Shown here piece after piece: positions 5,792 through 45,514 of a DNA stretch of 64,000 bases; position 1 is the stretch's first letter, and each line of letters begins with the position of its first letter. The DNA lies in NCBI RefSeq assembly GCF_947499265.1, contig NZ_CANMNK010000009.1:91314-155313 (forward strand), written 5' to 3'. The stretch comes from an uncultured Roseobacter sp. GTDB lineage: Bacteria > Pseudomonadota > Alphaproteobacteria > Rhodobacterales > Rhodobacteraceae. The position numbers and the translations under genes are program-made. The notes below the pieces were generated by a model that made no database searches, was not told the origin of the DNA, and saw only the letters and a program-made list of their open reading frames with translations.

Positions 5792-5808
5792 ACACTTGGG
5801 TAGCACAA

Positions 5809-5836
5809 CACTGCTGACACATACATGTCAGCAGTG
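5809..5836. promoter_or_regulatory. Palindromic operator, WYL regulator intergenic region
   Basis: Perfect 11-bp inverted repeat CACTGCTGACA - cataca - TGTCAGCAGTG centred between the divergent regulator (start 5791) and the NIF3-like gene (start 5879). Position and symmetry fit a binding site for the dimeric regulator controlling both directions. Confidence 0.7.
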
Positions 5837-5878
5837 AATTGTTAGACAGGGGCAAGCTCCGCAGTACAGGACGGCCCA

Positions 5879-6967: not shown

Positions 6968-6991
6968 GCGACGAAAATTCGCCGAGCGTGG

Positions 6992-11530: not shown

Positions 11531-12192
11531 CGCGCTGGAATAACGAACGATTTCTGCTTCACCTGAAGATCGGGCCACCCAAATATGCGCCCGGTCGCTT
11601 CATGTAGCCCTTCTAGATTCTGGCAAAACCTGTCCGTTTGATTTGCTTTTCCGGACAGCTTGTATCGCTTACGGCCTGCATTTCTGAGACTAATGCGGAC
11701 CCCACCGCCATTCAAAACCGCAATACATGGCACTCAAACGCGGCCCGAAGCTGTTCTTGAAACAGGCCAGTGGCGGAGAGACAGTCCGTCTTATTAAGTT
11801 TTTAATGTGTTGTATTTAAATATAATTATTTTACACTATAGAAATGGTACCACATAAAGTACCACCAGAGATCTGCGATGACCGGACTCGCGACGACAAT
11901 TAGGTACTCAGAAGTGGTTCAAAGGTACTGTTTGCAACAAACTGATCAAATTACTGCTCCCGGCCCGAAGCGGACGTTGGTTCGCGGTGCCTGTTGGCAG
12001 CAATGCGGACAAAAGCTGCCTTTCGCTGTGTCTGCTCCAATGAGCGCTTTTACAGTGAAAAGGTCCAACTATGTAGACGATACCTTATCGAAGAAGTCTT
12101 TTCGACTGCTAGCAAAGAGGCGTGTTTAGGGCGACGCTGTGTTGCGTTCGAGGTGCGGTGTTATGGGTCGAGACTAGTCCAGTTAAAAGGCC
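11531..12192. other. Backbone-island junction, no gene
   Basis: About 660 bases between the puc operon and the first island gene. It contains the 16-bp tRNA-Ser 3' end copy (11769-11784), after which the sequence turns AT-rich (11791-11850, tttttaatgtgttgtatttaaatataattatttt). Short ORFs here (11527-11733, 11878-12129, 11994-12278) have no recognisable features. Confidence 0.5.
11769..11784. repeat. Attachment-site copy (tRNA-Ser 3' end), distal end of left island
   Basis: AGTGGCGGAGAGACAG is identical and in the same orientation to 37990-38005, which spans the 3' end of tRNA-Ser(CGA) (complement CTGTCTCTCCGCCA plus two bases). The flanks differ (ccAGTGG..CAGtccg versus gtAGTGG..CAGggat). 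Sixteen matching bases with a tRNA 3' end and an integrase at the other end are typical of an attL/attR pair. Confidence 0.78.
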
Positions 12193-24371: not shown

Positions 24372-24706
24372 ACTGCGATCGGTGGGCCTATCCGGTGCGT
24401 CGAAAGCGACTTAATTACAAGGGCCTGTTTTTGAGAAGCCGACTTGGCGGTACGGTATCAGGTCCCAAGTGCGGTCGTTCCAAAGAGTCAAAACGGTTGA
24501 AATCTGAACTAAATGTTCGCTGCGTCATTCATGGATGCTTAAGTTGGGATGAAGGTTATACAGCCGCATTTGCGAGAAAGACCTCTTGAGGTTTAAGTCA
24601 ATTGGGTAGCCGACAAGCACGTCAACTTGGAGCAATCTTTGAACTATGTTGATCCTCCCCCAATTGAAGTAGTCCTCCGCTATTTTTAGGAAAACGGAGG
24701 AAACAC
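24372..24706. other. Intergenic region before IS3 remnant
   Basis: About 335 bases without a convincing gene (plus ORF 24395-24589 has no features). The last 60 bases (tgatcctcccccaattgaag...) may contain the left end of the IS3-type element that follows. Confidence 0.4.
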
Positions 24707-24856
24707 ATGGCCAACAAACGACCAAAGCCGGAAGAGATTGTCACGAAGTTACGGCAGGTTGAGGTACTGACAGGGCAAGGCATGCCACGTCTGGATGCTA
24801 TCCGGCAGATCGGTGTGACTGAACAGACGTATTACCGCTGGAGTGCAGGCGGATAG
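24707..24856 (+). pseudogene. Truncated IS3-family transposase OrfA
   Basis: Forty-nine codons, MANKRPKPEEIVTKLRQVEVLTGQGMPRLDAIRQIGVTEQTYYRWSAGG, then a stop. This is the helix-turn-helix N-terminus of an IS3-family (IS407-group type) OrfA; full versions continue after YYRWR with a leucine-zipper helix. The sequence diverges exactly there and no OrfB follows. It is too short for the ORF track. It marks an old insertion or a rearrangement point just before the GC-rich SRPBCC block. Confidence 0.82.
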
Positions 24857-25176
24857 GCCCGCATTCTGATCACCGGTGAGTGAGAATGACCAAAGAAGCG
24901 ATGATTGACACTAAGGACCTTCGCGGCGCGCCTCATCAACAGGAACAACGCGGACAAAACGGCCGTTCAACTTCTTCCAGTAAGGGTCCGCTTTGCATGC
25001 TTCGCGAACGTAGAAATCACGCCGAAGAACATCCATATCTCGCGTGAAGGGCGGACACAAAGCCATGGGAGTCCCAGTCGCGACGGTCTGCCATCGATCA
25101 CTTCGCCGGCTTCCGGTGCTGTCTACCTGTCGGACCGTGAGAGGTATCGTTAGTGTGATAAGCGACTGGCGGGATT
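24857..25176. other. Junction region between IS3 remnant and TetR gene
   Basis: About 320 bases. A minus-strand frame (24911-25189) contains ALCPPFTRDMDVLRRDFYVREACKADPYWKKLNGRFVRVVPVDEARR, which reads like genuine protein but has no clear start and no family I can name. Possibly the tail of a gene cut by the IS event. Confidence 0.35.
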
Positions 25177-25749
25177 CTATCCCTTCCAACCGTCAATGGT
25201 CTCAACTGCCACCTGTGCCATCGGCGCCGCTGCAATGGTCGAGCCCATAAGGCGGATCTGGCTGAGCGCACCCCAAAGCAGCCCGAGAAGGAACTCCGCT
25301 TTGCCACGCGGATCGCTCACGCCGTCCGCTTCAGCGGCGGCGCGGAAGGCATCGAACCACATCGTTCGGTAGGCCTCGACAGCCTCGCGAATTTTCGGGC
25401 TCGCACGACCCAGCTCGAAGACCGTGTTGACCATCAGGCATCCACAGTTCGTCACGTCTTCCTCGTTCTCCGTCGGCTGCGCGAGGCCCTGAAACATCAT
25501 CTGCGCAGCTTCCAAGCGTGGCGGGTCGAAGACCTGCCCGATCACCCCGCGGGCCATCTCGCTATAGGTAGCGAGCACCCGCAGGAAGATATCCTCCTTG
25601 TCGCCAAAGACATTGGCGATGCCGCGCACGCCGATGCCAGTTGCTTCCTCCAGCATTCGCGTGGTGGTCGCGTCATAGCCGTGGCGCCAGAACACCTGCA
25701 CCATCTTTTGCAAGGCTTCGTCTTCGTCGAAATTCCGGGGTCTGGCCAT
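25177..25749 (-). CDS. TetR-family regulator 1 of the SRPBCC cluster
   Basis: Protein of 190 residues. The N-terminal helix-turn-helix (MARPRNFDEDEALQKMVQVFWRHGYDATTTRMLEEATGIGVRGIANVFGDKEDIF) is typical TetR, followed by an all-helical ligand domain with CGCLMVNTVFELG. Divergent from the tautomerase-SRPBCC-hydrolase unit; the 95-base gap holds a dense set of TGCAT/ATGCA repeats that is its likely operator. Probably represses that unit until a small hydrophobic ligand binds. Confidence 0.88.
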   Translation of the reverse strand: MARPRNFDEDEALQKMVQVFWRHGYDATTTRMLEEATGIGVRGIANVFGDKEDIFLRVLATYSEMARGVIGQVFDPPRLEAAQMMFQGLAQPTENEEDVTNCGCLMVNTVFELGRASPKIREAVEAYRTMWFDAFRAAAEADGVSDPRGKAEFLLGLLWGALSQIRLMGSTIAAAPMAQVAVETIDGWKG

Positions 25750-25765
25750 TATTTTACATCAACTG

Positions 25766-25809
25766 TTGCATTATGCATCACCTCATGCAATATACATCGC
25801 ACGATGCAA
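25766..25809. promoter_or_regulatory. Repeated TGCA-type operator between TetR 1 and its target unit
   Basis: ttgcattatgcatcacctcatgcaatatacatcgcacgatgcaa contains TTGCAT, ATGCAT, CATGCAA and GATGCAA in both orientations within 44 bases. It lies between divergent starts (25749 and 25845). Fits one or two TetR dimers overlapping the promoters. Confidence 0.5.
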
Positions 25810-25844
25810 AAAACCATACCCATCGTGAGCCAAAGGAGAAAACT

Positions 25845-26042
25845 ATGCCAACCATCCGTGTCACCGTCCCGAAAGCCGCTTGGTCAAAGGACGAGAAAGC
25901 CCAGATCGTCGCCAAGCTGACCGACGGGCTCAACGCCGTCGCCAGCGATGCCGGCAAGGGCGACATCAAACCATACATCAACGTCCATATCGAAGAGACC
26001 GCCGAGGGCGGCTACGCGATGGGCGGTAACGTGGTCGCCTGA
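25845..26042 (+). CDS. 4-oxalocrotonate tautomerase-family protein
   Basis: Small enzyme of 65 residues, MPTIRVTVPKAAWSKDEKAQIVAKLTDGLNAVASD. Pro2, exposed after Met removal, is the catalytic base of this family. The track starts at 25641; the true ATG follows CAAAGGAGAA. Length and beta-alpha-beta layout match the family. The substrate is unknown; the neighbours (SRPBCC proteins and hydrolases) suggest handling of an enol, ketone or polyketide-like compound. First gene of the TetR 1 target unit. Confidence 0.82.
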   Translation: MPTIRVTVPKAAWSKDEKAQIVAKLTDGLNAVASDAGKGDIKPYINVHIEETAEGGYAMGGNVVA

Positions 26043-26092
26043 GCCTGTACGGTGGCCTATCTGGCCACCGCGTTTCTCAAAGGAGCAAGACT

Positions 26093-26614
26093 ATGAAGAT
26101 CAAGAAAACACTGACCGTCAACGCCCCGCCCGATGCGGTGTGGGATATCTTGGGGCCGAACTACGTCCGCGCGGGCGACTGGGCTTCGAGCGTCTATGTC
26201 TCTGGCGCGCGGCCCGGCACGCCCAAGATCGCGGGCGCACCTGCGGCGGGGCGGACCTGCGAAACCTCGCTTGGACCCTTCACGGAGACCATCGAAGCCT
26301 ATGACGAAGCGCGCCGCCATGTGGCCTATTCGGCCACCGGCGACAAGATGCCTAGCTTTATGAAAGGTCTGCGCAATGCCTGGACGGTGCGACCGAAAGG
26401 CGGCGTCAGCGAGGTCGAAATGGAGTTGAACGCGGACATCGCCTTCCCTTTCAACATCCTGATGGCCCCCATGATGAAGATGCAATTCGGCAAGGTTCTG
26501 CGCGAGGCAACCGAAGAGCTGAAGCACTATGCGGAAACCGGAAAACCGCACCCGCGCAAGCTGAAGGCCGACAGCAGCAAGAAGGCGGTCGCCGCACGCG
26601 CCGCCACCGCCTGA
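26093..26614 (+). CDS. SRPBCC (polyketide cyclase/START-like) protein
   Basis: Cytoplasmic protein of 173 residues with a hydrophobic-ligand-binding helix-grip fold: KKTLTVNAPPDAVWDILGPNYVRAGDWASSVYVSGARPG, later MPSFMKGLRNAWTVRP and a C-terminal helix. The tail GKPHPRKL matches GEPHPREL at the end of the next gene's product, pointing to common descent with its second domain. Preceded by AAAGGAGC. Role: binding or transforming a small lipophilic compound; no catalytic residues can be assigned. Confidence 0.82.
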   Translation: MKIKKTLTVNAPPDAVWDILGPNYVRAGDWASSVYVSGARPGTPKIAGAPAAGRTCETSLGPFTETIEAYDEARRHVAYSATGDKMPSFMKGLRNAWTVRPKGGVSEVEMELNADIAFPFNILMAPMMKMQFGKVLREATEELKHYAETGKPHPRKLKADSSKKAVAARAATA

Positions 26615-26638
26615 CACCCCAACCCCAAAGGAAAAGTC

Positions 26639-27700
26639 ATGAAACATCTTTCGACTGTGGCTTCGGCCGCACTGATCTCGCTCGCCCTGGCGCAAGGTGC
26701 CGTGGCCCAGGACATGCCACCGCGCGCCATCGGTTCGCTCGACGTCGATGCGGCCACGACAGCGCCGCTGCAAGTAACGCGCAGCGTTCATCTCGACGCC
26801 GCCCCCGAAACGATCTTTGCTACGATTGCCGACAATGAGAACTGGGTAAGTTGGTTCGATAGCCTTGAGAGCGTCGAGGGGCAGGACGGCTCTCGCACCT
26901 TTACCTTTACCGGCGGTCAGGGGGCGCTGACCGAGAACATCGTCGCCTTCGACGAGCCGAGCGTGTTTGCCTGGTCGATCAGCGAGGGCAATCCGCTGGG
27001 ACTCGAAAACCATCTTGGTGCGCTGCATGTGATGCCCGACGCGGAGGACGGCGAAGGCTCGGTCGTGAGCCTTTCGGTCTTCTACAACCATCCCGACCTT
27101 GCGGGGATCGCGCCGGTGACCGAAGGCGGCGGAGCGACGATCACTGATGCGCTGGTTTCCGTTCATGGTGGTTCGGTCACGCAAGAGGTCTTTGGCACCG
27201 ACAAGATCACCATCCGCACGACTCGCGTGACCGATGCCAGCGTGGCTGAGCTTTGGGGCGTGATGGTCGATGGCTTCGGCGATGTGGCCCAGTGGTCCAG
27301 CGTGATCTCGGAGGCGACACTCTTCGGCGAGACGGGCACGTCGAATGACGGTCTGCTGGGCGTCGGGCGGAAGTGTTTCATTCCAGGCTTCGGTTCCGAG
27401 GTGGAAGAACGCGTGGTCGAGGTCAATCGTGAGGCGGGTCGATTTGCCTACGAGGTGCTGGCCGGTCTTCCGCCCTTTGCCTCCAACGGGCTCAGCCAGT
27501 GGGAGTTCGAGGACCTTGGGGATGGTACGACGCGTGTAACCTCGACCATCACGATGGATATCGCCGAGGGAACACCGGGCATGGCTCTGGGCATGACCAA
27601 GGCGCAGTTCGGCCAGTTGATGACCATGAGCATCGACGAGTTCGTGCACTTCGTCCGGACCGGCGAGCCGCATCCCCGCGAACTGGCAAGCCGTTCGTGA
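26639..27700 (+). CDS. Exported protein with two SRPBCC domains
   Basis: Protein of 353 residues. The signal peptide MKHLSTVASAALISLALAQGAVAQ is followed by two helix-grip domains, roughly 45-185 (VTRSVHLDAAPETIFATIADNENWVSWFDSLESVEG) and 195-345 (ITIRTTRVTDASVAELWGVMVDGFGDVAQWSSVISEA). Tandem SRPBCC domains behind a signal peptide are unusual, since most family members are cytoplasmic. The end FVRTGEPHPREL echoes the preceding protein. It would bind a hydrophobic ligand in the periplasm. Two bases separate its stop from the next start. Confidence 0.8.
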   Translation: MKHLSTVASAALISLALAQGAVAQDMPPRAIGSLDVDAATTAPLQVTRSVHLDAAPETIFATIADNENWVSWFDSLESVEGQDGSRTFTFTGGQGALTENIVAFDEPSVFAWSISEGNPLGLENHLGALHVMPDAEDGEGSVVSLSVFYNHPDLAGIAPVTEGGGATITDALVSVHGGSVTQEVFGTDKITIRTTRVTDASVAELWGVMVDGFGDVAQWSSVISEATLFGETGTSNDGLLGVGRKCFIPGFGSEVEERVVEVNREAGRFAYEVLAGLPPFASNGLSQWEFEDLGDGTTRVTSTITMDIAEGTPGMALGMTKAQFGQLMTMSIDEFVHFVRTGEPHPRELASRS

Positions 27701-27701
27701 C

Positions 27702-28427
27702 ATGCGGGTCGTGACGCTCGCGGTGACGAGCCTTCTTGCGGCGCTTTCGGGCGCCGCAAGCCGTGCCGAGACGGTGGCGATCCCGGATGCAAGAGAGGCC
27801 GTCGTTCAGGTGATCTCGCGCGGGGAAGGGGCCGATCCTGCGCTCATCGTAGGCCTGCATGGATACGGGGCCAGCGAGCCGCAGATCGCGACGCTGCTGC
27901 CGGTCGAGCTCGATTTTCCGCATGTCTATGTTGCGGTTCGGGCGCCGCTCGCGCTGGAGGACGGTGGCTATGCCTGGTTCCGCTTTGCGGCGGAAGCGGG
28001 CGGGATCGTCATAGCACCAGGCGCGGTCGAGCGCGCGGTGGATGATCTCGCAACCCTGCTGCCGCGGATCGCGGAGGCCACTGGAGCAGCCTCGGACGAT
28101 ATCCATGTCGTCGGATACTCCCAAGGCGGAACGCTCGCCCTGGCGCTTGCGCTGGACCGACCCGAAGCTGTGGCCAGCGTGGCGGCCTTCGCGGGGGCAC
28201 TGCCAAGTGACCTCGCCACACCACAAGCCACCGCGCCGCTGCCAGTTCTCGCAGCGCACGGGCGACTGGATCCCCTGATCTCCGAACAAGACATCGCGCT
28301 GACCCGGGCCATGCTTGCCGCGGCCGGGCGGCGGGTCACCCCGTTTGACGAGGGCGTGCCCCATGTCGTTGGAAACGCGGGCCGGCTGCGGCTGCAGATT
28401 TGGCTGGCAGACCGTCTGGCGGACTGA
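27702..28427 (+). CDS. Exported alpha/beta hydrolase (carboxylesterase type)
   Basis: Protein of 241 residues with a signal peptide (MRVVTLAVTSLLAALSGAASRAE). The serine hydrolase triad is readable: nucleophile in VVGYSQGGTLALAL (about residue 140), Asp in HGRLDPLIS and His in GVPHVVGN; LHGYGASEPQ forms the oxyanion region. Resembles the phospholipase/carboxylesterase group. Last gene of the TetR 1 target unit, nearly touching the double-SRPBCC gene, so periplasmic ester hydrolysis is probably linked to the ligand of that protein. Confidence 0.82.
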   Translation: MRVVTLAVTSLLAALSGAASRAETVAIPDAREAVVQVISRGEGADPALIVGLHGYGASEPQIATLLPVELDFPHVYVAVRAPLALEDGGYAWFRFAAEAGGIVIAPGAVERAVDDLATLLPRIAEATGAASDDIHVVGYSQGGTLALALALDRPEAVASVAAFAGALPSDLATPQATAPLPVLAAHGRLDPLISEQDIALTRAMLAAAGRRVTPFDEGVPHVVGNAGRLRLQIWLADRLAD

Positions 28428-28455
28428 GCAAAACGCCACCCGTGAGGCGGGGCGC

Positions 28456-29052
28456 TCAACCCGCGGCCCAGCCCTCCACGGTCCGAACCGCCTCGCGCAT
28501 AAACGAGTTCCCGCCCGAGGCGTCGCCCGCTGCCCGGTTGAGCACCATTGCCGCCATCACGGCGCCCTTGACGAACTCCGCTGCGGAGGCCGGATCGACA
28601 TCATCCCGCACCGTTCCGGTCGCGCGGCCCCGGATCAACAACGCCGCGACTTCGTCCCTCAGCGTGTCGAAATGCCGGTCGGTCGCTTCGCGGAGTGGGC
28701 CGCTGTCGAGCGATACGTTCTCGATGGTAGTGTTGACCATAAGACAGCCCAGGTGCCTCAGCGTCTCGGGGTGCGGCGCGACCATGCCTTCGAGAACCTC
28801 GACGATGGCTTGAGGATCGTCACGCTTGCGAAGGACGTCATAGACATAGGTTTCGGTGTCGCCGGAATAGGACGAGAGCGCTTCAAGCATCAGCCCTTCT
28901 TTACCGCCGAATTCGGTGCGGATCGCAAAGCGCCCGAGGCCGGTCTCCTCCTCGATGGCGCGAATGCCAAGCCCCTGATAGCCGTGCTTCCAGAACAGAT
29001 TGCGCACGCGCTCGACAACCTCTGCACGGTCATAACTTTTTGGACGCGCCAT
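28456..29052 (-). CDS. TetR-family regulator 2 of the SRPBCC cluster
   Basis: Protein of 198 residues, MARPKSYDRAEVVERVRNLFWKHGYQGLGIRAIEEETGLGRFAIRTEFGGKEGLM. The 340-codon track ORF starts far upstream in the neighbouring gene; ATG 29052 overlaps the stop of the MBL-like gene (ATGA). It shares the layout of TetR 1, including a GCLMVNT segment, so the two regulators are probably related. Likely represses its own unit and the divergent hydrolase-SRPBCC unit through the twin 16-bp sites at 29746-29783. Confidence 0.87.
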   Translation of the reverse strand: MARPKSYDRAEVVERVRNLFWKHGYQGLGIRAIEEETGLGRFAIRTEFGGKEGLMLEALSSYSGDTETYVYDVLRKRDDPQAIVEVLEGMVAPHPETLRHLGCLMVNTTIENVSLDSGPLREATDRHFDTLRDEVAALLIRGRATGTVRDDVDPASAAEFVKGAVMAAMVLNRAAGDASGGNSFMREAVRTVEGWAAG

Positions 29053-29714
29053 CAGAGACCCTCCACAATGTCTTTCAAGCCCATCGCAAGTCCAGTTCCT
29101 GCGACGCGATTGCCATGCGCCGGAAAAAGCTGCGTCGGCTGGTCCCGCTCGATCTGCGCGAGCGCCCAGGCCTTGTAGCGCGGCGGATCGCCAAGGCACA
29201 TTGTGGCAAAGGCTCCCCGCGCCTTGGGCTCCGTGGCGGGCGCGTCGTCCGTGCCCGCCGGCCCCGCGAACGCGTCGCAGACGGCCCACGCGACGCCGTC
29301 CGCCGTTTCCGCGCGGAGCCAGACCTCCGGTGCCTTCAGACCCTCGGGAAAGAGAAACGCAGCACCATCGACGAGTGACGGCATCTTTGCTGATGGTCGA
29401 ACACCCAGACGTTTCTCCAGCCGGTCGCAGGCACCCTCGGGTGCACAGAGCGATGCCTCTGGAAAAGCATCCATCCATGCCGCGATGCCGAGATGATGAT
29501 AAGGCGACGGCGCGATGATGGCCGCGACCCCGCCGCGCGCACGGGCCGCGTCGACAGCCTCCGAATCGGGCGCAGGGACAGGCGAGTAAAGCGCCAGCGC
29601 GCCGTCGGCCAGACGCGCCGCCATCATCCGGGCAGCCCCTCGGCGCGCGGTGAAAAGGTTGGACGATCCGGGCACCAGGCTCAATGGATCAAGGGGTTTG
29701 ACGGGCAAGGGCAA
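29052..29714 (-). CDS. Metallo-beta-lactamase-fold-like protein (DUF4336 type)
   Basis: Protein of 220 residues with an overall MBL-like order: NLFTARRGAARMMAARL, a central APSPYHHLGIAAWMDAFP and a late FPAHGNRVAG. The usual HxHxDH metal motif is replaced by PYHHLG, as in proteins of the DUF4336 kind, so metal binding and hydrolase activity are doubtful. Its stop overlaps the start of TetR 2. Function unknown; the company suggests metabolism of the same compound. Confidence 0.7.
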   Translation of the reverse strand: MPLPVKPLDPLSLVPGSSNLFTARRGAARMMAARLADGALALYSPVPAPDSEAVDAARARGGVAAIIAPSPYHHLGIAAWMDAFPEASLCAPEGACDRLEKRLGVRPSAKMPSLVDGAAFLFPEGLKAPEVWLRAETADGVAWAVCDAFAGPAGTDDAPATEPKARGAFATMCLGDPPRYKAWALAQIERDQPTQLFPAHGNRVAGTGLAMGLKDIVEGL

Positions 29715-29732
29715 CCTCTTTTGGATTCTGCG

Positions 29733-29762
29733 TTGACAATCATTTCACTTCATACGTAGTGT
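29733..29762 (+). promoter_or_regulatory. Sigma-70-like promoter of the second SRPBCC unit
   Basis: TTGACA at 29733-29738, an 18-base spacer and TAGTGT at 29757-29762 lie 58 bases before the hydrolase start. The first CACT-N8-AGTG site overlaps the spacer and -10, as expected for repression. Confidence 0.5.
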
Positions 29763-29783
29763 TATAGCACTTCACTTGTAGTG
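29746..29783. promoter_or_regulatory. Twin 16-bp operator sites for TetR 2
   Basis: CACTTCATACGTAGTG (29746-29761) and CACTTCACTTGTAGTG (29768-29783) share CACT-TCA...GT-AGTG and start 22 bases apart, two helical turns. Both have inverted CACT/AGTG ends. They lie between the divergent MBL-like and hydrolase genes. Confidence 0.65.
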
Positions 29784-29819
29784 ATACACAGACTTCACCC
29801 TTCCGACCAGAGGAAATCC

Positions 29820-30776
29820 ATGAAACATCTTCTTCTTTCGACCGTGCTCTTGTTCGTGGCAGGGCAGCCCGCCTGGGCTGAAACCCCACGGGAAGCCCAT
29901 CGCGCAACGCTCGAACGCGCGGACATTGGCGGGCACGGCATTGCCTATCTTGATCTCGGCGACCCTGCCGATCCTGCTGTCATGCTGCTGCACGGTATCC
30001 CGACTTCGTCCTACCTCTATCGGGACGTCGCCCCACAGATCGCCGCTGCGGGTTACCGTGTCATCGCGCCTGACCTTCTGGGCCACGGGGCGTCCGACAG
30101 GCCGGACGATATGGCCGCCTACGCGACCGACGCCCGCGCCGTGCGGATGTTCGCGCTGGCCGACATGCTCGGGATCGAGAACTTCGCGCTGGTCCTCCAC
30201 GACGTTGGCGGCATGACCGGGTGGGCCATGGTCGGGCAGGCACCCGAACGGCTGTCAGCGGTCGTCGCGACCAACACGCTGGCCGGTCTCGATGGCGTCA
30301 CGCCTGCGCCGCTCGTGATGCAGATGATGGCCGGTCAGGTCTCGCCCACGGACGCCTTCGCGGATCTCGATGACCCGGCTGCGGCGCGAGACATGGCGCA
30401 GATGTGGATGGATCAGGGCTATTCCGGCCCCGGCACCGCACCCGCCGAGGAGGTCGATGCCTATGGCGCGGATCTTGTGGGTGCAAGCACCGCCTACGCC
30501 GCATTTTTCGGCATGGCCGTCCCAGCTTTCATGCAGGGTGGTGAGGCGCTTACCACTGATCTTGCCGCCTATGACGGACCCACCGCCATCATCTTTGGCG
30601 AACAGGATGGCTTCTTTGCAGCCGACATCGTGATCGCCGATCTCGCGGCGAAACTCGGCACGAACGCTGGCGATATCACCCGCCTGCCGGAGACTGGACA
30701 CTTCCTGCAAGCGCAGGCGCCTGCGGCTTACGTCGCCGCCCTCACTGACTTCCTGAACACTAATCTGGAGAACTAA
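29820..30776 (+). CDS. Exported alpha/beta hydrolase, haloalkane-dehalogenase-like
   Basis: Protein of 318 residues with a signal peptide (MKHLLLSTVLLFVAGQPAWAE). Motifs: LLHGIPTSSYLYRDV, LLGHGASDRPDD, nucleophile segment FALVLHDVGGMTGWAM (about residue 127) and a late ETGHFLQ holding the catalytic His. The nucleophile elbow has Asp (HDVGG), as in haloalkane and fluoroacetate dehalogenases, not the Ser of esterases. The true ATG follows AGAGGAAATCC; the track start is 13 codons too early. First gene of the TetR 2 target unit. Halide specificity cannot be read from sequence. Confidence 0.82.
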   Translation: MKHLLLSTVLLFVAGQPAWAETPREAHRATLERADIGGHGIAYLDLGDPADPAVMLLHGIPTSSYLYRDVAPQIAAAGYRVIAPDLLGHGASDRPDDMAAYATDARAVRMFALADMLGIENFALVLHDVGGMTGWAMVGQAPERLSAVVATNTLAGLDGVTPAPLVMQMMAGQVSPTDAFADLDDPAAARDMAQMWMDQGYSGPGTAPAEEVDAYGADLVGASTAYAAFFGMAVPAFMQGGEALTTDLAAYDGPTAIIFGEQDGFFAADIVIADLAAKLGTNAGDITRLPETGHFLQAQAPAAYVAALTDFLNTNLEN

Positions 30777-30779
30777 CCC

Positions 30780-31238
30780 ATGGCAAAAGTCACCACCCGC
30801 CGCAAAATTGATGCCCCCGCGTCCGAGGTCTGGAAAAGCCTCGACGATTACGGCGGCATCGCGAAATGGAACGAAAACCTCGCCGCTTCGCGCATCCTGC
30901 CAGGCAGCGCGGAAACCGGCCTCGGCGCGAAGCGCCAGTGCGATCTCAACGCGGACGGCAGCCAATACCTGCGCGAAACCATCAACCAGTACGAGCCGGG
31001 GCGGAAACTCGGCCTCGTCATCGACGACACGACCATGCCGATGAAAGGCGCGACCTGCCTGTTCGAAGTGCGCGAGTTGGGCCCGAACCGGAGCGAGTTG
31101 ATCTTCACCATGGACTTCAAGCCGCCCATGGGCCCAATCGGCATGCTGATGCTGCCGATGATGAAACCCATGCTGCGCGGCAAGATGGCCAAGGCGCTGG
31201 ATGGCAACGCGCGTCACGTCGAAGGCGTGATGGCCTGA
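30780..31238 (+). CDS. SRPBCC family protein
   Basis: Cytoplasmic helix-grip protein of 152 residues: KVTTRRKIDAPASEVWKSLDDYGGIAKWNENLAASRILPGS, later RGKMAKALDGNARHVEGVMA. It begins three bases after the hydrolase stop, so it is in the same operon. The central pattern and length match single-domain polyketide cyclase/START-like proteins. Ligand unknown. Confidence 0.82.
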   Translation: MAKVTTRRKIDAPASEVWKSLDDYGGIAKWNENLAASRILPGSAETGLGAKRQCDLNADGSQYLRETINQYEPGRKLGLVIDDTTMPMKGATCLFEVRELGPNRSELIFTMDFKPPMGPIGMLMLPMMKPMLRGKMAKALDGNARHVEGVMA

Positions 31239-31273
31239 TCGACCGAAATCTCAATACAGATAGGACTGAAAAA

Positions 31274-31720
31274 ATGACCAAGACATCCGCCTCCGTGAGC
31301 CTTGCAACCCACATCGACGCACCGCTCGACGCCGTGCGCGCCGCCGTGCACGATCCGGCCTGGAGCAAATGGGTTCCGTTCCTGAAATCCGACACCTGCG
31401 AGGGGGACGCCGCCGGATCGGCGCGCGTTTGCGTCATGGCGCATCCCGACCCGCAGCTTGATGGCTACGAATTGCAGGAGACGATCACCGAGAACGACCG
31501 CGATGCGGGGCGCTTCGGCTACGCCATTGCCAACCCGCCGTTCCCGGTGGAGAACCTCGGCGGCACCGTCACCACGGAGCAGACCGACGACGGCGTGCTT
31601 GCGATCTGGACGGCACATTTCGACGCCGAGCCAGAAGTGCTGGAGGAGGTCCGGCCGATGATGCTGCACTCCTACCATGCGGCCTTTCAGGGCCTCGAGG
31701 CCCACGCGACGGTAGGGTGA
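31274..31720 (+). CDS. SRPBCC family protein
   Basis: Protein of 148 residues: SVSLATHIDAPLDAVRAAVHDPAWSKWVPFLKSDTCEGD ... ANPPFPVENLGGTVTTEQTDDGVLAIWTAHFDA. The 31274 ATG is the natural start; the 284-codon track ORF begins out of context upstream. Third gene of the TetR 2 target unit and the fifth SRPBCC domain of the cluster. Ligand unknown. Confidence 0.8.
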   Translation: MTKTSASVSLATHIDAPLDAVRAAVHDPAWSKWVPFLKSDTCEGDAAGSARVCVMAHPDPQLDGYELQETITENDRDAGRFGYAIANPPFPVENLGGTVTTEQTDDGVLAIWTAHFDAEPEVLEEVRPMMLHSYHAAFQGLEAHATVG

Positions 31721-32099
31721 CTTGATCAGGGGCCAGCATCATCGCTGGCCTCAATCGAGGTCCTCTAGAGAACCTTGTTCCGGCAATCCAAGCAGCCCGA
31801 TTGCCATACTCTCTATTGTAGACTGATTTCGCTAGAGGATTATCTGAGACTACTCCCCATCACCGCTTACTGGCCGCAAACCTCCCAAGACTTAGATGTC
31901 GGCTCGTGGCGCATTGCCGCTATTTGAGCAGAGCGCAGCATTCGGGAGGTATGGGCTCTTCGCCGACCTTAGCCGCGCGACGCATCAACGGCAGCGGGCA
32001 GCCCGAAGCAGACATCGACGTTGCGCCCACTAACCATCGGAAGTACTTTCCCAGATGAATAGACTAGCAAGGCCCAACACCCCGTGGAACTGAGGTAAA
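31721..32099. other. Intergenic region with a 7-bp hairpin
   Basis: Contains GGCCAGC-atcatc-GCTGGCC (31731-31750) just after the last SRPBCC gene, without a T run, and a copy of the dispersed motif (GCAGCCCGAAGCAGACAT, 31998-32015). Composition drops here from GC-rich to AT-rich. No gene seen. Confidence 0.45.
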
Positions 32100-33185
32100 G
32101 TGAGCGTGACCGCCAATAGTGAAGTCGAGATTGAGTACTTGACGGATGATGACACTGAGACATCCAGTGTTGAATTCAATATCGTTGTGACATCAAGCGA
32201 TTGGACGCTTGAGCTACTGGCTAACAAGTTTAAAAGTGGCGACATCATTATTCCCGACTACCAGAGAAAATATGTTTGGGACATCCGTAGAGCATCAACT
32301 CTGATAGAGAGTTTCGCAATCGGACTCCCTGTTCCTCAAGTCTTTTTCTATGAGAATAGCGATGGCCAGCTTGAAGTGATTGACGGACAGCAACGCATTA
32401 CCTCCATAGCGTATTTCTTCGAAGGTTTCTTCGGCGAGGAAGATGCGAACGGAAATAGGAAAGTATTTAAGCTAAAGGGCCTCGAACAACGGAAAGACTT
32501 AGAAGGCAAGTCATTCAATGAACTTGACGAGCGAACAAAACGCAGGATCAAAAATGCCAGTTTACGTGGCGTAACTGTCAAACAACTGACCCCTGAGGAA
32601 GAACAACCAGAAAGTGTCTATCATATCTTTGAAAGACTGAATACCGGTGGGCAACCGCTCAATGCACAAGAGATACGGAACGCTGTGTATCGGGGAAAGC
32701 TACTAACCGAACTCGAACGACTGAATGGTGATGAAAACTGGCGAACCATATATGGCAAGCCCGACCCTGACCCTAAACAACGAGACGTTGAGCTAATCCT
32801 GAGACTTCTGGCGTTCTACAAAAACACGTCCAACTATGTGCCTCCGATGAAGGACTTCCTTTCCACGGAAATGTCTAAGAACAGGAACTATGCTTCCGAT
32901 CGCGCCCAAGAATTTAGCGCGACTTTTTCGCGGGCTACAGAGGCCATAGTCGCCGTGCTGGACAAACCGTTTCGTCCACGGGGACTTCTGAACGCAGCTA
33001 CTTTGGAAGCTGTAATGGTGTCATTGATGGAGCAAGGTCCAGATGCCGAGTTTACGAAGGACAAATACGATGAGCTCATTGGCAACCAAGAATTCAAGGA
33101 TGTGATATTCTCGAACACTTCGAACATTGATAACGTGAAGTCGCGGAGTAGAATCGCGAACCAAATCCTGTTTGGACATGAGTGA
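32100..33185 (+). CDS. DUF262 (GmrSD N-terminal type) protein
   Basis: Protein of 361 residues. The DUF262 domain, a ParB/Srx-related nucleotide-binding fold, is clear: DIIIPDYQRKYVWDIRRASTLIESFAIGLPVPQVFFYE, then VIDGQQRITSIAYFF and HIFERLNTGGQPLNAQEIRNAVYRG. DUF262 forms the nucleotide-dependent half of GmrSD-type restriction enzymes and other defence proteins. The C-terminal nuclease part (DUF1524) is absent; instead, a separate HEPN gene overlaps the stop by eight bases. The two probably act as one toxin-antitoxin or abortive-infection system. GTG start. Confidence 0.87.
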   Translation: MSVTANSEVEIEYLTDDDTETSSVEFNIVVTSSDWTLELLANKFKSGDIIIPDYQRKYVWDIRRASTLIESFAIGLPVPQVFFYENSDGQLEVIDGQQRITSIAYFFEGFFGEEDANGNRKVFKLKGLEQRKDLEGKSFNELDERTKRRIKNASLRGVTVKQLTPEEEQPESVYHIFERLNTGGQPLNAQEIRNAVYRGKLLTELERLNGDENWRTIYGKPDPDPKQRDVELILRLLAFYKNTSNYVPPMKDFLSTEMSKNRNYASDRAQEFSATFSRATEAIVAVLDKPFRPRGLLNAATLEAVMVSLMEQGPDAEFTKDKYDELIGNQEFKDVIFSNTSNIDNVKSRSRIANQILFGHE

Positions 33186-33717
33186 ACGTCTAGACGAGAG
33201 CTTTCTACATATTCGTAACTTGGCTCGCGACATTGACGAAAAACTGAGCGGCACGTCTAGTGCTGAGCAGCGGTTACGAAACGAAATTGCTGGCATGTTT
33301 GCCGTCACGATTGCCGCCTCATATGAGGGGATCGTGAAGGAGACTCTGGTGGAGTATGCAGGTAAATTTCACACCAAGTATCAAGCTCATGTTGAGAAGG
33401 ATTTTGAAAGACTAAACGCGCGCATTTCCATAAACGATCTAAAGTCATATTCGCGTCGATTTGGTCTTGCTGAATGGACGGGCCACGGCGTCAAGAAAAA
33501 CTCGACGACATTCCACAAAGTGTTGGCCGAAAAAGAGAAGGTGGTTGAGCGACGGTTTCGAACTGATCTTCAAAAAAGCTACGACAGCATCTTTATTTGG
33601 AGAAATTCATACGCTCATGAGCGTTCGACCACAGCGACTTTCAATGACGTATACAGGGCGCACAGAGTTGCTCAATACGTCGTTCGATCCTTTGTTACCG
33701 CATTTGAATTGGGGTGA
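33178..33717 (+). CDS. HEPN-domain ribonuclease-like protein (RiboL-PSP/MAE_28990 type)
   Basis: Protein of 179 residues. Helical HEPN fold with the catalytic R-x4-H motif in SIFIWRNSYAHERSTT and a preceding helix GMFAVTIAASYEGIVKETLVEYA. HEPN proteins of this type are metal-independent RNases found in toxin-antitoxin and phage-defence loci. ATG 33178 lies inside the DUF262 gene's last codons, so translation is coupled. Inferred role: effector nuclease of the pair, with DUF262 as sensor or regulator. Confidence 0.84.
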   Translation: MSERLDESFLHIRNLARDIDEKLSGTSSAEQRLRNEIAGMFAVTIAASYEGIVKETLVEYAGKFHTKYQAHVEKDFERLNARISINDLKSYSRRFGLAEWTGHGVKKNSTTFHKVLAEKEKVVERRFRTDLQKSYDSIFIWRNSYAHERSTTATFNDVYRAHRVAQYVVRSFVTAFELG

Positions 33718-33847: not shown

Positions 33848-34867
33848 CTACCTCGCCATCCCCTTGATCAATTCCGCCTGCCTTTGCCGTGACACCGGCA
33901 TGTAGGACCCGACAGTTACCGCCATGCTGTCGTGGCCCATGTTCATCGACCACGCTTTGAATTGCTCCATGTCGTTGCACATCTCCTTGCCAAGCATGGC
34001 AAGCGTCGTGCGGAAGCTGTGGGGCGTGTATTCCGGCAACTGCACCATAGCAAAGGCGTTGCGGATGATGGCGTTGAGTTTGCTGCCGTTGCTGTAGGGA
34101 TCGCGCGAAAGACCCAGATTGACAAAACCACCGCCCTCAGAAAAGCCTCTCTCAGGCTTGGGAAAGAGCGCGTCCTGGCCCCCGAACAGCTTTTCGTGGC
34201 GCAGATACTCAACCCATGCAGTGAAGCACGCCAGATAGGCCGGATCGACAGGGTAAAATGTCGTGTCGATGGTCTTCGAGAACTTGGTATTCACATCGCG
34301 CCCGTCTTGCAAAACCTTGCCGTGAAAGAGGTCAATGTGCTTCAGGCGCAGGGACGCAACGGCACCGACACGCGCGCCTGTGAGCATAAAGAAGGCAAAG
34401 AGCGCCTTATCGCGTTTCTCAAAATCGGACCCGTCCGGCATCGCCTGAAAGGCATGGTATGCTGCCTCAACGCTTGGGTATTCCTTGTCACGTTTAGCGT
34501 GGGCCGCGCGCGCCGCCTTCAGACTGTTTTTGAAGTATGCTGTGTCGCTGTAAGTGATCTTGGACTTGTAGCCTTGCTGCCCCGCCAGCCATTCAAAGAA
34601 GCCGCGCACCAATGCCAGGGTGGCGTCGATGGTGGACCCGCTCAAAGGGTTGCCGGTCCTGCCTTTGGCCTTCGCCAAATCAGTTTTGAACTTGGCGGGT
34701 TGCTCGATATGGAACCGCTTGAACGGCTTGAACCCGGTTGATTGTTCGAACTTCAACAGGGCCGACAACACCTTGTCTGTGGACTTTTCATCCAGCCCTT
34801 TTGCCTGCTCCAGATAATGCACGTAGGCCCGTTTCGCCCGCTCGTTTGCTTCGACTGTTTTCCGCAT
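33848..34867 (-). CDS. Tyrosine recombinase/phage integrase (second recombinase of the island)
   Basis: Protein of 339 residues. An N-terminal SAM-like core-binding domain (1-120) precedes a catalytic domain with TGARVGAVASLRLKHIDL, TPHSFRTTLAML and the late MGHDSMAVTVGSYMPV carrying the tyrosine. Intact. With the two small HTH genes upstream on the same strand, it resembles the end of a prophage- or ICE-like element. It is separate from the P4-type integrase that borders the tRNA. Confidence 0.87.
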   Translation of the reverse strand: MRKTVEANERAKRAYVHYLEQAKGLDEKSTDKVLSALLKFEQSTGFKPFKRFHIEQPAKFKTDLAKAKGRTGNPLSGSTIDATLALVRGFFEWLAGQQGYKSKITYSDTAYFKNSLKAARAAHAKRDKEYPSVEAAYHAFQAMPDGSDFEKRDKALFAFFMLTGARVGAVASLRLKHIDLFHGKVLQDGRDVNTKFSKTIDTTFYPVDPAYLACFTAWVEYLRHEKLFGGQDALFPKPERGFSEGGGFVNLGLSRDPYSNGSKLNAIIRNAFAMVQLPEYTPHSFRTTLAMLGKEMCNDMEQFKAWSMNMGHDSMAVTVGSYMPVSRQRQAELIKGMAR

Positions 34868-34964: not shown

Positions 34965-35390
34965 CTAGGCTTGCGACCCACTGCGTCTATCAATGGCGAA
35001 TACTTCGCTCAAAGCCGCCAAACTGGCCTCGGCACTGAACTTCTGACATGGGCGTTCGCAGGTCTCACAAAGCGCTTCGAGACGACCTCTTGTCTGGTTG
35101 ATCGGCACATAGTCCACCATCATGCCAAATGGCTTTTTTGGCGCTCGGCATTTGAAGCAATAGAATTGATCTGCGGCCAATGTGATCGTGCGCTTTTGCT
35201 GTCGTTTCGCCACGAACTCGATCAACGCCTCGCCGAGAATGTAGTGGGGCCGACCTTGATCGAGAACCTTCAACCCTTCGCCTTTCCACGCCCGCACCGT
35301 TTGGACAGATAGACCCAAAATACAGGCGGCGTCCTCATAGGTATAATGCCGGTGTTTCTTGATCCCGCGCGTTGAGACGCGTTTACCCAT
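34965..35390 (-). CDS. HTH protein with CxxC pairs (excisionase/MerR-like)
   Basis: Protein of 141 residues from ATG 35390 (MGKRVSTRGIKKHRHYTYEDAACILGLSVQTVRAWKGEGL); the track start is too early. An N-terminal winged helix of the MerR/excisionase type is followed by a treble-clef-like metal site FYCFKCRAPKKP ... ALCETCERPC. The ATG shares a base with the upstream stop (TGATG), indicating coupling. Likely a small regulator or directionality factor for the recombinase. Confidence 0.72.
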   Translation of the reverse strand: MGKRVSTRGIKKHRHYTYEDAACILGLSVQTVRAWKGEGLKVLDQGRPHYILGEALIEFVAKRQQKRTITLAADQFYCFKCRAPKKPFGMMVDYVPINQTRGRLEALCETCERPCQKFSAEASLAALSEVFAIDRRSGSQA

Positions 35391-35602
35391 CAGGCCGCCC
35401 CCTCTTTCGAGGGATCGACCCGGCTTGCCTCTGCCCATGTGTTGAGATCAGCGCCGCGATAGATGATCTTGCGGCCCAGCTTGTAGAACGCCGGACCCAT
35501 GCCTTTGTGCCGCCATTGCGCCAGCTTGTCCCGGTCGCCGATGAGGTTGAGTTCCTCATCGCCAAGAACGTAGTTTCGGTTTTGCTCGAATAGGTTTGCC
35601 AT
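35390..35602 (-). CDS. Excisionase/AlpA-like small HTH protein
   Basis: Protein of 70 residues: NYVLGDEELNLIGDRDKLAQWRHKGMGPAFYKLGRKIIYRGADLNTWAEASRV. The order helix-turn-helix, then PAFYKLGRKIIYR..DL..W, is that of the HTH_17/AlpA excisionase family. Directly upstream of, and overlapping, the CxxC HTH gene. Role: recombination directionality or regulation, inferred from the family and place. Confidence 0.78.
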   Translation of the reverse strand: MANLFEQNRNYVLGDEELNLIGDRDKLAQWRHKGMGPAFYKLGRKIIYRGADLNTWAEASRVDPSKEGAA

Positions 35603-35721: not shown

Positions 35722-36651
35722 TTACGTCTTGAGTCGGCCACTTAAGAAACGCGCGACTGTTGCAACATCGATCAATTCAGTCCCTTGCGGCTTATTTTTT
35801 GACCTTTTTCCAAGATATGATCGACGAATTTTAGAATCGTGCGGCATCCGTTCAACAGCGGACAATATCTGCCCTCCAATGGCTGACCAATTGCCGTACT
35901 TTCGTTGATCTTGTGCAAGGATTTCTTGAGCCATGACTTCGCAATGTGCTTTCCAATCCTCGCTTCGCTTAATCAGAGTTTCCGTCGCTTTTCCACTCTG
36001 GCCTCTAAGCCTTTCGACTTGCTCCTGTCGCTTCATCAGTTCGACACTATGGGTAATCTTCTGGCGCAATTGTTCCCATAAAACACCGATGAGAAACAAA
36101 CTGCCCCCTTCACCACTTGCAGTGAACTCTCTCATTATTCTCGCAGCGTACCACGTTGGCCGGAACAATTGCCCGTTGTCGCAAAGGTATTTTTCAACCT
36201 CCTTAAAGATTGCATGTGTGTTCTTGATCGCTGGCTTTAGGTCATAGAATTCACCAAACTCATTTTGTGCCGACTGCTTTTCAGCGACCCATTTCCTGAG
36301 GTGCCGCTGCGGTTCTGGGACATCATCACGGCTATCGAATATCTCATCGAACTCGACTGAATTGCCGTCATTGCACCAATAGTCGGCCTCAAAACTGAAG
36401 AACCCGGCATAAATAAGCAGGTCAACACAAAAGCCTATTGTTTCTTCTTGATCGGCACGCAGGGCAAATGAAAATGCCATATCTGAGACAGTTTTCTCAT
36501 CTCCAACAAGGAGATCATTGATTATGCTTTCGCCAAGAGAAACATCTTCTTCGAAAACTGCCCTTATCATTTGTTTTTCTGCGAGATAGATCGAGCGTCG
36601 TATCCCGCTCACTCCTTTGTCAGAAGGCGGTTCGCTTTCATCGTGACTCAT
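35722..36651 (-). CDS. Hypothetical protein coupled to the P4-type integrase
   Basis: Protein of 309 residues, MSHDESEPPSDKGVSGIRRSIYLAEKQMIRAVFEED. Mostly acidic and helical, with a probable coiled-coil at 195-235 (VLWEQLRQKITHSVELMKRQEQVERLRGQSG). No signal peptide, metal site or known catalytic motif. Its ATG overlaps the integrase stop (ATGA), so it is made together with the integrase. Unknown; integrase-linked unknown genes are often control or anti-phage cargo. Confidence 0.7.
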   Translation of the reverse strand: MSHDESEPPSDKGVSGIRRSIYLAEKQMIRAVFEEDVSLGESIINDLLVGDEKTVSDMAFSFALRADQEETIGFCVDLLIYAGFFSFEADYWCNDGNSVEFDEIFDSRDDVPEPQRHLRKWVAEKQSAQNEFGEFYDLKPAIKNTHAIFKEVEKYLCDNGQLFRPTWYAARIMREFTASGEGGSLFLIGVLWEQLRQKITHSVELMKRQEQVERLRGQSGKATETLIKRSEDWKAHCEVMAQEILAQDQRKYGNWSAIGGQILSAVERMPHDSKIRRSYLGKRSKNKPQGTELIDVATVARFLSGRLKT

Positions 36652-37841
36652 GCTAGCTTGAGTACGTTGTGATCATTGGCGGCCACATATCCCGACCACC
36701 GCTCCATCAGCAGCCTGCGCTTGTCCAGTAGATCCGACCGCGCATAGGCCCGTTCCACGTCTGACCCAACCTGATGCGCCAAGCTCATTTCCGCCACTTC
36801 ACGTGGTGCGTTTGCGACCTCTGAGGCCCAATCGCGGAAGGTAGAGCGGAAACCGTGGACCGTGACCCCCTCAACCTTCATTCGGCGCAAGAGCATGAGC
36901 ATCGACATATTGGACAGCGGCTTGTGGCGTTTCTGGCCTTCGAACACGTACTCAGATTGCATCGCTTGCAGCGGCTCGATGATCGACAGCATTTCATCCG
37001 TCAGCGGCACGCGGTGATCCGCACCTGTTTTCATACGCACCGCCGGGCAGGTCCACACCCGCGCCTCCAGATCGACCTCGCCCCACTGCATACCCAAGAC
37101 TTCACCCGTGCGCGATCCGGTCAAACACGTAAACATCAGCGCTTTAGCGGCCATCGCGTTGCGGGTTTTCAGATCAGCGTAGAACGCGGGCACGTCACGC
37201 CAGTGCATCGCCTTGTGGTGTTTGACCTTGGCTTTCACTTTAGGCAAGGCCTGCGCATCCTTGATCGCCGTGACGGGGTTTTCGCCAGACCGGAATCCTT
37301 TGGAGCGCGCCACATCCAGCACCGTCTTGATCCGCTGCGCCAGCCGTTTCGCAGTTTCGTGCTTTTCCGTCCAGATCGGGGCGAGACACATCATCACTTC
37401 GGGCTGGTCAACACTGTCAATCGGCATCCGGCCAATCTTGGGAAAGGCATAGTCGCGCAGTGTATTGATCCATTGTTGACCATGCTTGGCGTTTTTCCAC
37501 GTGGGCAATCGGTCAATGTGGACCTGTTTGGCGAACTCTTCGAAGGTGGGAATGTCACGCGTGGCATTGAAACGCGGGTTCAGGCCGGTCTTGGCCATGC
37601 GCCGATATTCCAGCGCCCGCTCCCGCGCTTGGTTGATCGTAACGATATCCGCGCCCCCCAAACCAAAGTCCGTCCGCAGCGGCGCGCCCTTCTTGTTCTT
37701 CTGGCCCTTGACCACCACCCGCACGATCCAGCGCCGCGCACCAGACGGATCGACCACAAGGTAAAGGCCGTTCCCGTCGCCATGCCGCCCGGGGCCAAGG
37801 TTTTCCACCAGCTTCTTTGTCAGCTTGCCGGACAGGGCCAT
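36648..37841 (-). CDS. P4-type tyrosine integrase bordering tRNA-Ser
   Basis: Protein of 397 residues from ATG 37841 (MALSGKLTKKLVENLGPGRHGDGNGLYLVV); the track adds ten residues. The DUF4102 arm-binding domain comes first, then a core-binding region and the catalytic part: FTCLTGSRTGEVLGMQW, VHGFRSTFRDWASE and SLAHQVGSDVERAYARSDLLDKRR with the tyrosine in ERAYARS. These integrases insert islands into tRNA 3' ends. The gene starts about 150 bases from the tRNA-Ser 3' end, the usual arrangement. Confidence 0.92.
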   Translation of the reverse strand: MALSGKLTKKLVENLGPGRHGDGNGLYLVVDPSGARRWIVRVVVKGQKNKKGAPLRTDFGLGGADIVTINQARERALEYRRMAKTGLNPRFNATRDIPTFEEFAKQVHIDRLPTWKNAKHGQQWINTLRDYAFPKIGRMPIDSVDQPEVMMCLAPIWTEKHETAKRLAQRIKTVLDVARSKGFRSGENPVTAIKDAQALPKVKAKVKHHKAMHWRDVPAFYADLKTRNAMAAKALMFTCLTGSRTGEVLGMQWGEVDLEARVWTCPAVRMKTGADHRVPLTDEMLSIIEPLQAMQSEYVFEGQKRHKPLSNMSMLMLLRRMKVEGVTVHGFRSTFRDWASEVANAPREVAEMSLAHQVGSDVERAYARSDLLDKRRLLMERWSGYVAANDHNVLKLA

Positions 37842-37989
37842 TCCTAAAATACCACATTCTCTACCACTCAAGGAAAGAATAAAGACACCATCGAAAGAAA
37901 CTCAAGGAAATGATGAAACAGCGCAACCGCTTATCAAACAAAGAAAAAAGCCGCCCAAGGTAGCTCATTCAAATTCAGAAAAATGTGGT

Positions 37990-38005
37990 AGTGGCGGAGA
38001 GACAG
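37990..38005. repeat. Attachment site in tRNA-Ser 3' end, proximal end of left island
   Basis: AGTGGCGGAGAGACAG, identical to 11769-11784. It overlaps the last 14 tRNA positions including the encoded CCA. See the island entry. Confidence 0.78.
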
Positions 38006-38081
38006 GGATTCGAACCCTGGGTGGGCTTGCACCCACAACGGTTTTCGAGACCGCCCCGTTCGACCACTCCGGCACCTCTCC
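37992..38081 (-). tRNA. tRNA-Ser (anticodon CGA)
   Basis: Ninety nucleotides with a 7-bp acceptor stem (GGAGAGG / TCTCTCC), D arm, anticodon loop CTCGAAA (anticodon CGA, reads UCG), a long class II variable arm (GTGGGTGCAAGCCCAC), T arm GGGTTCGAATCCC and an encoded CCA. Intact. Its 3' end is repeated at 11769 and its 5' half at 45469, so it is the integration target for two elements. Confidence 0.97.
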
Positions 38082-38084
38082 GCG
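38039..38084. repeat. 46-bp tRNA 5'-half repeat, proximal end of right island
   Basis: CGGTTTTCGAGACCGCCCCG... to CGCG, covering the anticodon arm, D arm, acceptor 5' strand and three bases upstream. It is identical to 45469-45514 in the same orientation. The flanks differ on both sides (acaa/tttgat versus tatt/ggggtc). Confidence 0.85.
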
Positions 38085-38609: not shown

Positions 38610-39284
38610 ATGCAAGAGCAGAAAGAATTCACAGGGGCGAAGTACGGTTACGTCAGGGTCTCGACAGAAGAGCAGACCGATCAGATGCAGCGAGATGCTT
38701 TGATTGAGTACGGCGTTTCGCCCGGCATGATCTTCGGCGACAAGATGACAGGTGCGCATATGCAGCGGCCTGGCTTGTTGGGTGTGTTGAACCTGTGTCG
38801 GCCAGGGGACATGCTGGTTGTCTGGAAACTCGATAGGCTAGGGCGCACGGTTAAGGGTGTTCTTGAGGTGATAGAAAACCTCAACGAAAAGAACATCGAG
38901 TTGAAATCGATCACTGAGGAAATCAACACCACCACACCCATGGGCCGCATGATCATGACGATACTGTTGGCGCTGGCCCAGATGGAGCGTGAGTTGATTT
39001 CGGAGCGTACCGCAGCGGGAATTGCCTCTAAGCAAGCGACTGGATGGAAGCCGGGACCAAAGCATCGGATACGCGATTACCCGAAGCGTTTGGCCAAGTT
39101 CACTGAATTGCTGATGGACGATAAGCTCAAGGATATGACGGCTGCTGAAATCATCCAGACGATGAACGACGCAGATCCAAAAGCACCAAAGATCAACGCG
39201 CCGCAGATGTACTACAATTGGAAGCGTGAAGGGTTTCCCGGCCTTGAGCTGAGCGATCCGCCGCTTGAAGGTGACGATGAATAG
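38610..39284 (+). CDS. Serine recombinase (resolvase/invertase family)
   Basis: Protein of 224 residues. The catalytic serine is in YVRVSTEEQ (Ser18-19 region), followed by the resolvase core LVVWKLDRLGRTVKGVLEVIENL and ALAQMERELISERTAAGIAS. A C-terminal DNA-binding part (about 150-224) lacks the short Hin-type helix-turn-helix and is somewhat longer. Pin/Tn3-resolvase-like size. It opens the right island; it may resolve or invert DNA but is not the type that usually targets tRNAs. Confidence 0.88.
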   Translation: MQEQKEFTGAKYGYVRVSTEEQTDQMQRDALIEYGVSPGMIFGDKMTGAHMQRPGLLGVLNLCRPGDMLVVWKLDRLGRTVKGVLEVIENLNEKNIELKSITEEINTTTPMGRMIMTILLALAQMERELISERTAAGIASKQATGWKPGPKHRIRDYPKRLAKFTELLMDDKLKDMTAAEIIQTMNDADPKAPKINAPQMYYNWKREGFPGLELSDPPLEGDDE

Positions 39285-39340: not shown

Positions 39341-40147
39341 ATGCGAGCGATGGAAAGACTGACCTTACCTAGGTTGGCTGGTCTTGATGACCTTTTTACT
39401 CTGTTTCGAGAGAAGTCATCTTCAAGGGACATGCTGTTTCGTGGGCAGTCTGATGCGGATTGGGAACTTGTTCCAAGCCTTTACCGTCAAGGTATTGGGG
39501 GAATCAACGTAGGGCGTGGGCCGCGGCACAACGAAAGAGCTTACGATGCCGTAGAGAAGAGAATCTCCAATCGGTTCTTCTCGGAGGGATATCCGTTTCT
39601 CACTACAATCGAGCGTTCGACTCGCAACGACTTAGCGATAATGCAGCACTTCGGCTGTCCAACTAGGCTGTTGGATTGGTCACGGGATCCGCTGGTCGCG
39701 CTTTATTTCGCGCTGTATTCTTCTAAAGAAAATACTGATGCTGCGCTTTATTTAATCTCACCTACTGGTCAAATTGGCACAACAATTGATGGACCGTATC
39801 CGGCGGGATTGCCTCACAGGGGTAGGTTGATGATGATTGCGCCATCTACAATTGATAGGCGCGTAATCGCGCAAAAGTCGATGTTTACTATCCAGTCGTT
39901 TGGAGAGAACGAACTGGAATTCACGCCTCTTGATCGTCGGGAGATCTTAAGGGAGACACCGGTTAATCCCACTGACCCTCATGAGCAAACTACCGCTTTT
40001 GTCAAATTCATAATTCCCAACGGGCGAAAGTGGTATCTTATGGATCGACTGCTCAGCATGGGAGTAAACCATGCGACACTGTTTCCCGGTCTTGAAGGGA
40101 TCGGTTCCTCGATAGCCCACGCGGTGCGTCATAGGCATCTCGTTTGA
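39341..40147 (+). CDS. FRG-domain protein
   Basis: Protein of 268 residues with the FRG domain: LFRGQSDADWELVPSLYRQG near the N-terminus and LAIMQHFGCPTRLLDWSRDPLVALYFAL centrally. FRG domains, related to ADP-ribosyl-transfer-like folds, occur in prophages and defence islands; their activity is poorly known. It sits 57 bases after the recombinase gene, in the same direction. The first codons contain two ATGs (MRAMERL); either may be used. Confidence 0.82.
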   Translation: MRAMERLTLPRLAGLDDLFTLFREKSSSRDMLFRGQSDADWELVPSLYRQGIGGINVGRGPRHNERAYDAVEKRISNRFFSEGYPFLTTIERSTRNDLAIMQHFGCPTRLLDWSRDPLVALYFALYSSKENTDAALYLISPTGQIGTTIDGPYPAGLPHRGRLMMIAPSTIDRRVIAQKSMFTIQSFGENELEFTPLDRREILRETPVNPTDPHEQTTAFVKFIIPNGRKWYLMDRLLSMGVNHATLFPGLEGIGSSIAHAVRHRHLV

Positions 40148-45468: not shown

Positions 45469-45514
45469 CGGTTTTCGAGACCGCCCCGTTCGACCACTCC
45501 GGCACCTCTCCGCG
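45469..45514. repeat. 46-bp tRNA 5'-half repeat, distal end of right island
   Basis: Identical to 38039-38084: anticodon to acceptor 5' strand plus three upstream bases of tRNA-Ser(CGA). No tRNA 3' half is present here, so this copy is not a functional tRNA. It marks where backbone sequence resumes. Confidence 0.85.

Follow-up and report, generated by a model that had tools for sequence, protein, structure and literature searches.

A DUF262-HEPN gene pair in a Roseobacter genomic island as a probable PD-T4-2-like anti-phage unit

In the 64,000-nucleotide stretch of DNA analysed here from an uncultured Roseobacter sp. (the window), two overlapping genes encode a DUF262 protein and a HEPN protein. 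Together they probably act as a compact anti-phage unit of two genes, of the DUF262-HEPN (PD-T4-2-like) kind, in which a DUF262 sensor would gate a HEPN RNase to bring about abortive infection. That the pair is a likely phage-defence unit, as the initial annotation had also proposed, is well supported by the conservation and mobility of the pair, by its hotspot neighbours and by the validated relative PD-T4-2. The two reading frames, their 8-bp overlap, a WRNSYAHE motif, an AT-rich setting and a separate HEPN gene in place of a fused DUF1524 nuclease were all found as that annotation had described them. Its implied novelty did not hold: a 2013 catalogue already included the operon type (PMC3710099), PD-T4-2 was validated in 2022 (PMC9519451; PMC10952713) and public plasmid annotations already name DUF262 and HEPN genes next to each other. 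As a kind, the DUF262-HEPN pair is already known and of low novelty.

The first gene (32100..33185, forward strand, GTG start, TGA stop) encodes a stand-alone DUF262 (GmrSD_N, ParB/Srx-like) protein of 361 amino acids, which matched PF03235 far beyond chance (E=5.7e-34) and PHROG 2598 at 6e-82. The codons of its nucleotide-pocket motif IDGQQR (residues 94-99; 32379..32396, forward strand) are intact, and D95, G96, Q98 and R99 showed no variation among 17 aligned DUF262 proteins. The protein is probably an NTP-dependent sensor or regulator. Its structure model was poor (pLDDT 54) and unusable. No DUF1524 match was detected in this protein or in the six others scanned, namely the HEPN protein and right-hand neighbours.

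The second gene (33178..33717, forward strand, ATG start, TGA stop) encodes a RiboL-PSP-type HEPN protein of 179 amino acids, again with a Pfam match far beyond chance (HEPN_RiboL-PSP, PF18735, E=2.8e-17). HEPN superfamily proteins with an Rx4-6H motif are mostly RNases. Here the catalytic motif RNSYAH (Rx4H; codons 33601..33618, forward strand) is intact, forming part of W-RNSYAH-E at residues 141-148, and on this basis the pair is predicted to target RNA. When 15 diverse HEPN partners were aligned, E50, R142 and H147 were the sole invariant residues, as would be expected for a catalytic centre. The protein is a probable RNase effector. Its predicted structure was all-helical at moderate confidence (pLDDT 73), and a PDB fold search with this model gave nothing significant, the HEPN toxin 7ae6 appearing at E=1.4 and TM 0.34-0.40. 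PADLOC returned no match of any kind for the HEPN protein.

The two genes share exactly 8 bp (ATGAGTGA; 33178..33185, forward strand), which suggests translational coupling. An ORF finder had started the HEPN gene at a TTG at 33172, which is disfavoured because the ATG and an identical 8-bp overlap are kept in three related loci (L020, L021 and L026). These belong to a set of seven alphaproteobacterial loci (L020-L026) that retain the pair, with identities to the window of 61-82 % for DUF262 and 45-79 % for HEPN; in each the HEPN gene overlaps or abuts the DUF262 gene and Rx4H is intact. Pairwise protein distances of the two components were correlated (r=0.92). Nonsynonymous differences per site amounted to 12-26 % for DUF262 and 12-35 % for HEPN, with synonymous sites saturated; both genes are under purifying selection. 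We compared 5-kb flanks of the window, L020-L026, two enterobacterial plasmids and one viral contig. Flanking genes were in common only around L024 and L026, which share about the same insertion site in a ribosomal-protein region, and the flanks of the compared loci otherwise had no third gene in common. The minimal unit is therefore the two genes alone. In the alphaproteobacteria of L024 and L026 the pair (L024 3202-4879; L026 6001-7618) lies within the ribosomal-protein cluster, with the rplD part on one side of it and the rplB/rpsC part on the other, a surprising site for a defence unit.

In the DUF262 tree a copy from Sphingorhabdus falls within the Rhodobacterales clade, which points to horizontal transfer. 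By tblastn the HEPN protein had matches on 20 conjugative plasmids of E. coli and Salmonella, which also top the DUF262 match list. Two of these plasmids were examined closely and carry the genes side by side (DUF262 48 %, HEPN 29 % identity). On the E. coli plasmid CP057779 a related pair occupies 5609-7249. More distant pairs were found in Kocuria, Hymenobacter, Exiguobacterium, Rhodococcus and a 3.9-kb E. coli plasmid. Across 289 sampled genomes from the alphaproteobacterial class, PF18735 turned up at 13 places, and at nine of these it was encoded immediately after DUF262. Phage records contained no HEPN match; viral contigs carry DUF262 relatives, one of which (on L043) has a true HEPN partner of the window lineage.

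PADLOC's best-scoring model for the window DUF262 protein was NsnA (PDLC03877, 3.5e-72). NsnABC is the system known as Menshen. In keeping with this, Menshen has an OLD/AAA partner (PMC10952713); a literature search under the name NsnA found nothing relevant. The full gene set is exemplified by a Photobacterium plasmid locus (L007), where DUF262 is accompanied by NsnB (AAA, DUF3696) and NsnC instead of HEPN. Both are missing at the window, where the next genes encode the HEPN protein and a tyrosine recombinase, and an assignment to Menshen was rejected on these grounds. GmrSD, BrxU and SspE have in common with the window protein a DUF262 domain with the DGQQR pocket, but their DUF1524 HNH nuclease is neither fused nor adjacent at the window, where the effector is HEPN. 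A GmrSD with an overlooked DUF1524 was likewise rejected, since none was found in the proteins scanned. DUF262 without DUF1524 also occurs in Menshen and Dazbog (PMC10952713).

The closest description by operon type is that of Anantharaman 2013 (PMC3710099), who recorded RiboL-PSP-HEPN as an "operon with ParB" and put DUF262 in the ParB class. The window pair has the PF18735 HEPN with an intact Rx4-6H motif directly behind a ParB/DUF262 gene; theirs is a computational catalogue in which the pair has neither a name nor an assayed function. The same work describes MAE_28990 HEPN proteins as co-operonic with ParB nuclease and DNA methylase genes. On a Roseomonas plasmid (L010 3908-6803) we observed a tight operon of DUF262, a MAE_28990-type HEPN and a DNA cytosine methyltransferase, a possible modification-linked variant of the DUF262-HEPN system.

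Of experimentally tested systems, PD-T4-2 is the closest. According to Vassallo 2022 (PMC9519451), PD-T4-2 protects both E. coli K-12 and its native strain from T4, and T4 plaquing rises dramatically on ECOR65 lacking it. A 2023 review places the system under both DUF262 and PF18735 (PMC10952713); by hmmscan, three PD-T4-2_B proteins had no PF18735 match. PD-T4-2 shares with the window pair a two-gene layout in which a small HEPN protein is encoded after DUF262, and in the three members found the HEPN gene starts at the DUF262 stop or a few bases from it. The stand-alone window DUF262 matched the PD-T4-2_A model (PDLC04027, E=5e-45, residues 49-357), although NsnA scored higher. In contrast, the window HEPN had no match to PD-T4-2_B (PDLC04028) at E<=0.1 in PADLOC, and no PD-T4-2_B match was found in the window's own genome at E<=0.001. 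Profile-profile comparison (hhalign) of the window HEPN with PD-T4-2_B was weak, at 27 % probability, and two distant HEPN proteins paired with other DUF262 genes matched PD-T4-2_B weakly (4.4e-4 and 7.9e-3). The aligned PD-T4-2_A proteins read IDGLQR where the window protein reads IDGQQR. In the DUF262 tree, whose deepest branching order is uncertain owing to long branches, PD-T4-2_A formed a separate clade (support 100/99) and the window fell in a 13-row RiboL-HEPN set (97/99). Membership of PD-T4-2 proper was rejected because PD-T4-2_B was unmatched and the DUF262 clades are separate. Together with the hhalign result and the motif difference, these observations indicate that the pair is best regarded as a sister lineage to PD-T4-2, of the same kind and not a strict member.

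Local GC content at the pair is 48 %, against 55-65 % around it. The initial annotation had placed it in an integrase-bounded island, which held for the right side. There we found a tyrosine recombinase (33848..34867, reverse strand, PF00589), 49 % identical by BLASTP to a recombinase from the counterpart island in another species (L060), a helix-turn-helix protein with a weak match (34965..35438, reverse strand; HTH_28, 9.6e-5, under the curated cut-off), a tRNA-linked tyrosine integrase (36648..37871, reverse strand; PF13356, PF22022, PF00589) and, as the right-hand integration site, a tRNA-Ser(CGA) gene identified by ARAGORN (37992..38081, reverse strand). By the integrase, a 309-amino-acid gene (35722-36651) was unmatched in Pfam, NCBIfam and PHROGs, and PADLOC gave nothing notable; islands related to that of the window carry unmatched genes at the equivalent position. 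On the left the claim failed, as a GC-rich block lies there and a search within 24-40 kb revealed neither an integrase nor an att repeat; the sole left att candidate is a 16-nt copy of the tRNA end at 11769-11784. This left neighbour (about 24953-31958) is a 7-kb block ~100 % identical to nearly the whole of a 7199-bp contig from another species of the genus, and has therefore moved recently. In relatives, numerous contig ends match a repeat at ~24650-24842, a pattern suggestive of an insertion sequence. To the right, the 5' half of tRNA-Ser(CGA) recurs 7.4 kb away as a perfect 46-bp direct repeat (38039-38084 and 45469-45514). Between the two copies lies a second element, which carries genes for a resolvase-type recombinase (38610-39284), for an FRG-domain protein (39341-40147) and for a DUF4139/DUF4140 protein (41933-43579).

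Several genomes within the genus carry the tRNA-linked integrase at tRNA-Ser, with 82-86 % DNA identity in five. In two other species of the genus, different cargo lies beside it: Avs3a in G005 (L063 314-6574, 2223 bits) and HsdM in G004 (L061 3376-4554). None of the same-genus genomes with this integrase has a window-type DUF262 homologue except G013, where it lies elsewhere in the genome. This exchange of cargo at one integrase supports a variable defence hotspot, and the tRNA-Ser site is likely to be one.

DUF262 is an NTP-hydrolysing domain; when SspE recognises the DNA mark, its NTPase is set off and in turn switches on the nuclease domain (PMC10952713). By analogy, the window DUF262 would bind NTP and sense an infection cue, which in GmrSD/BrxU/SspE-type relatives is modified DNA; it would then release or activate the HEPN RNase, whose cleavage of RNA would stop the infected cell, most probably by abortive infection. 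The main rival is a maintenance module of the toxin-antitoxin type, in which DUF262 keeps a HEPN RNase toxin inactive and the pair is selected for island or plasmid retention instead of phage defence. Two overlapping genes with a HEPN effector, plasmid copies near replication and pemIK genes on conjugative plasmids and lone chromosomal insertions of the pair would fit such a module. However, PD-T4-2, a relative, confers protection from T4, restriction systems also have the large DUF262 NTPase/sensor domain, and Avs3a and HsdM occupy the same integrase site in relatives; we regard the maintenance module as unlikely. That DUF262 itself cuts nucleic acid with HEPN as an accessory is highly improbable: ParB-like domains were treated as nucleases in the 2013 catalogue (PMC3710099), but reviewed systems have DUF262 as the NTPase/sensing part and DUF1524 as the nuclease (PMC10952713), invariance across HEPN partners is confined to the three residues above, and the effectors next to DUF262 are swapped (HEPN; AAA (DUF3696) with NsnC; MAE_28990 HEPN with a methyltransferase).

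Under the preferred reading of a DUF262-gated HEPN RNase, the RiboL-PSP-HEPN/DUF262(DGQQR) lineage might, more tentatively, be a distinct subtype missed by PADLOC, with another trigger or RNA target than PD-T4-2: a mobile, two-gene, NTP-gated RNase defence of alphaproteobacteria and enterobacterial plasmids. The HEPN side of this lineage on E. coli plasmids escapes the PADLOC models used. The findings support the view of DUF262 as a general sensor module with exchangeable effectors, among them DUF1524, HEPN, an OLD-like ATPase, and HEPN with a methyltransferase.
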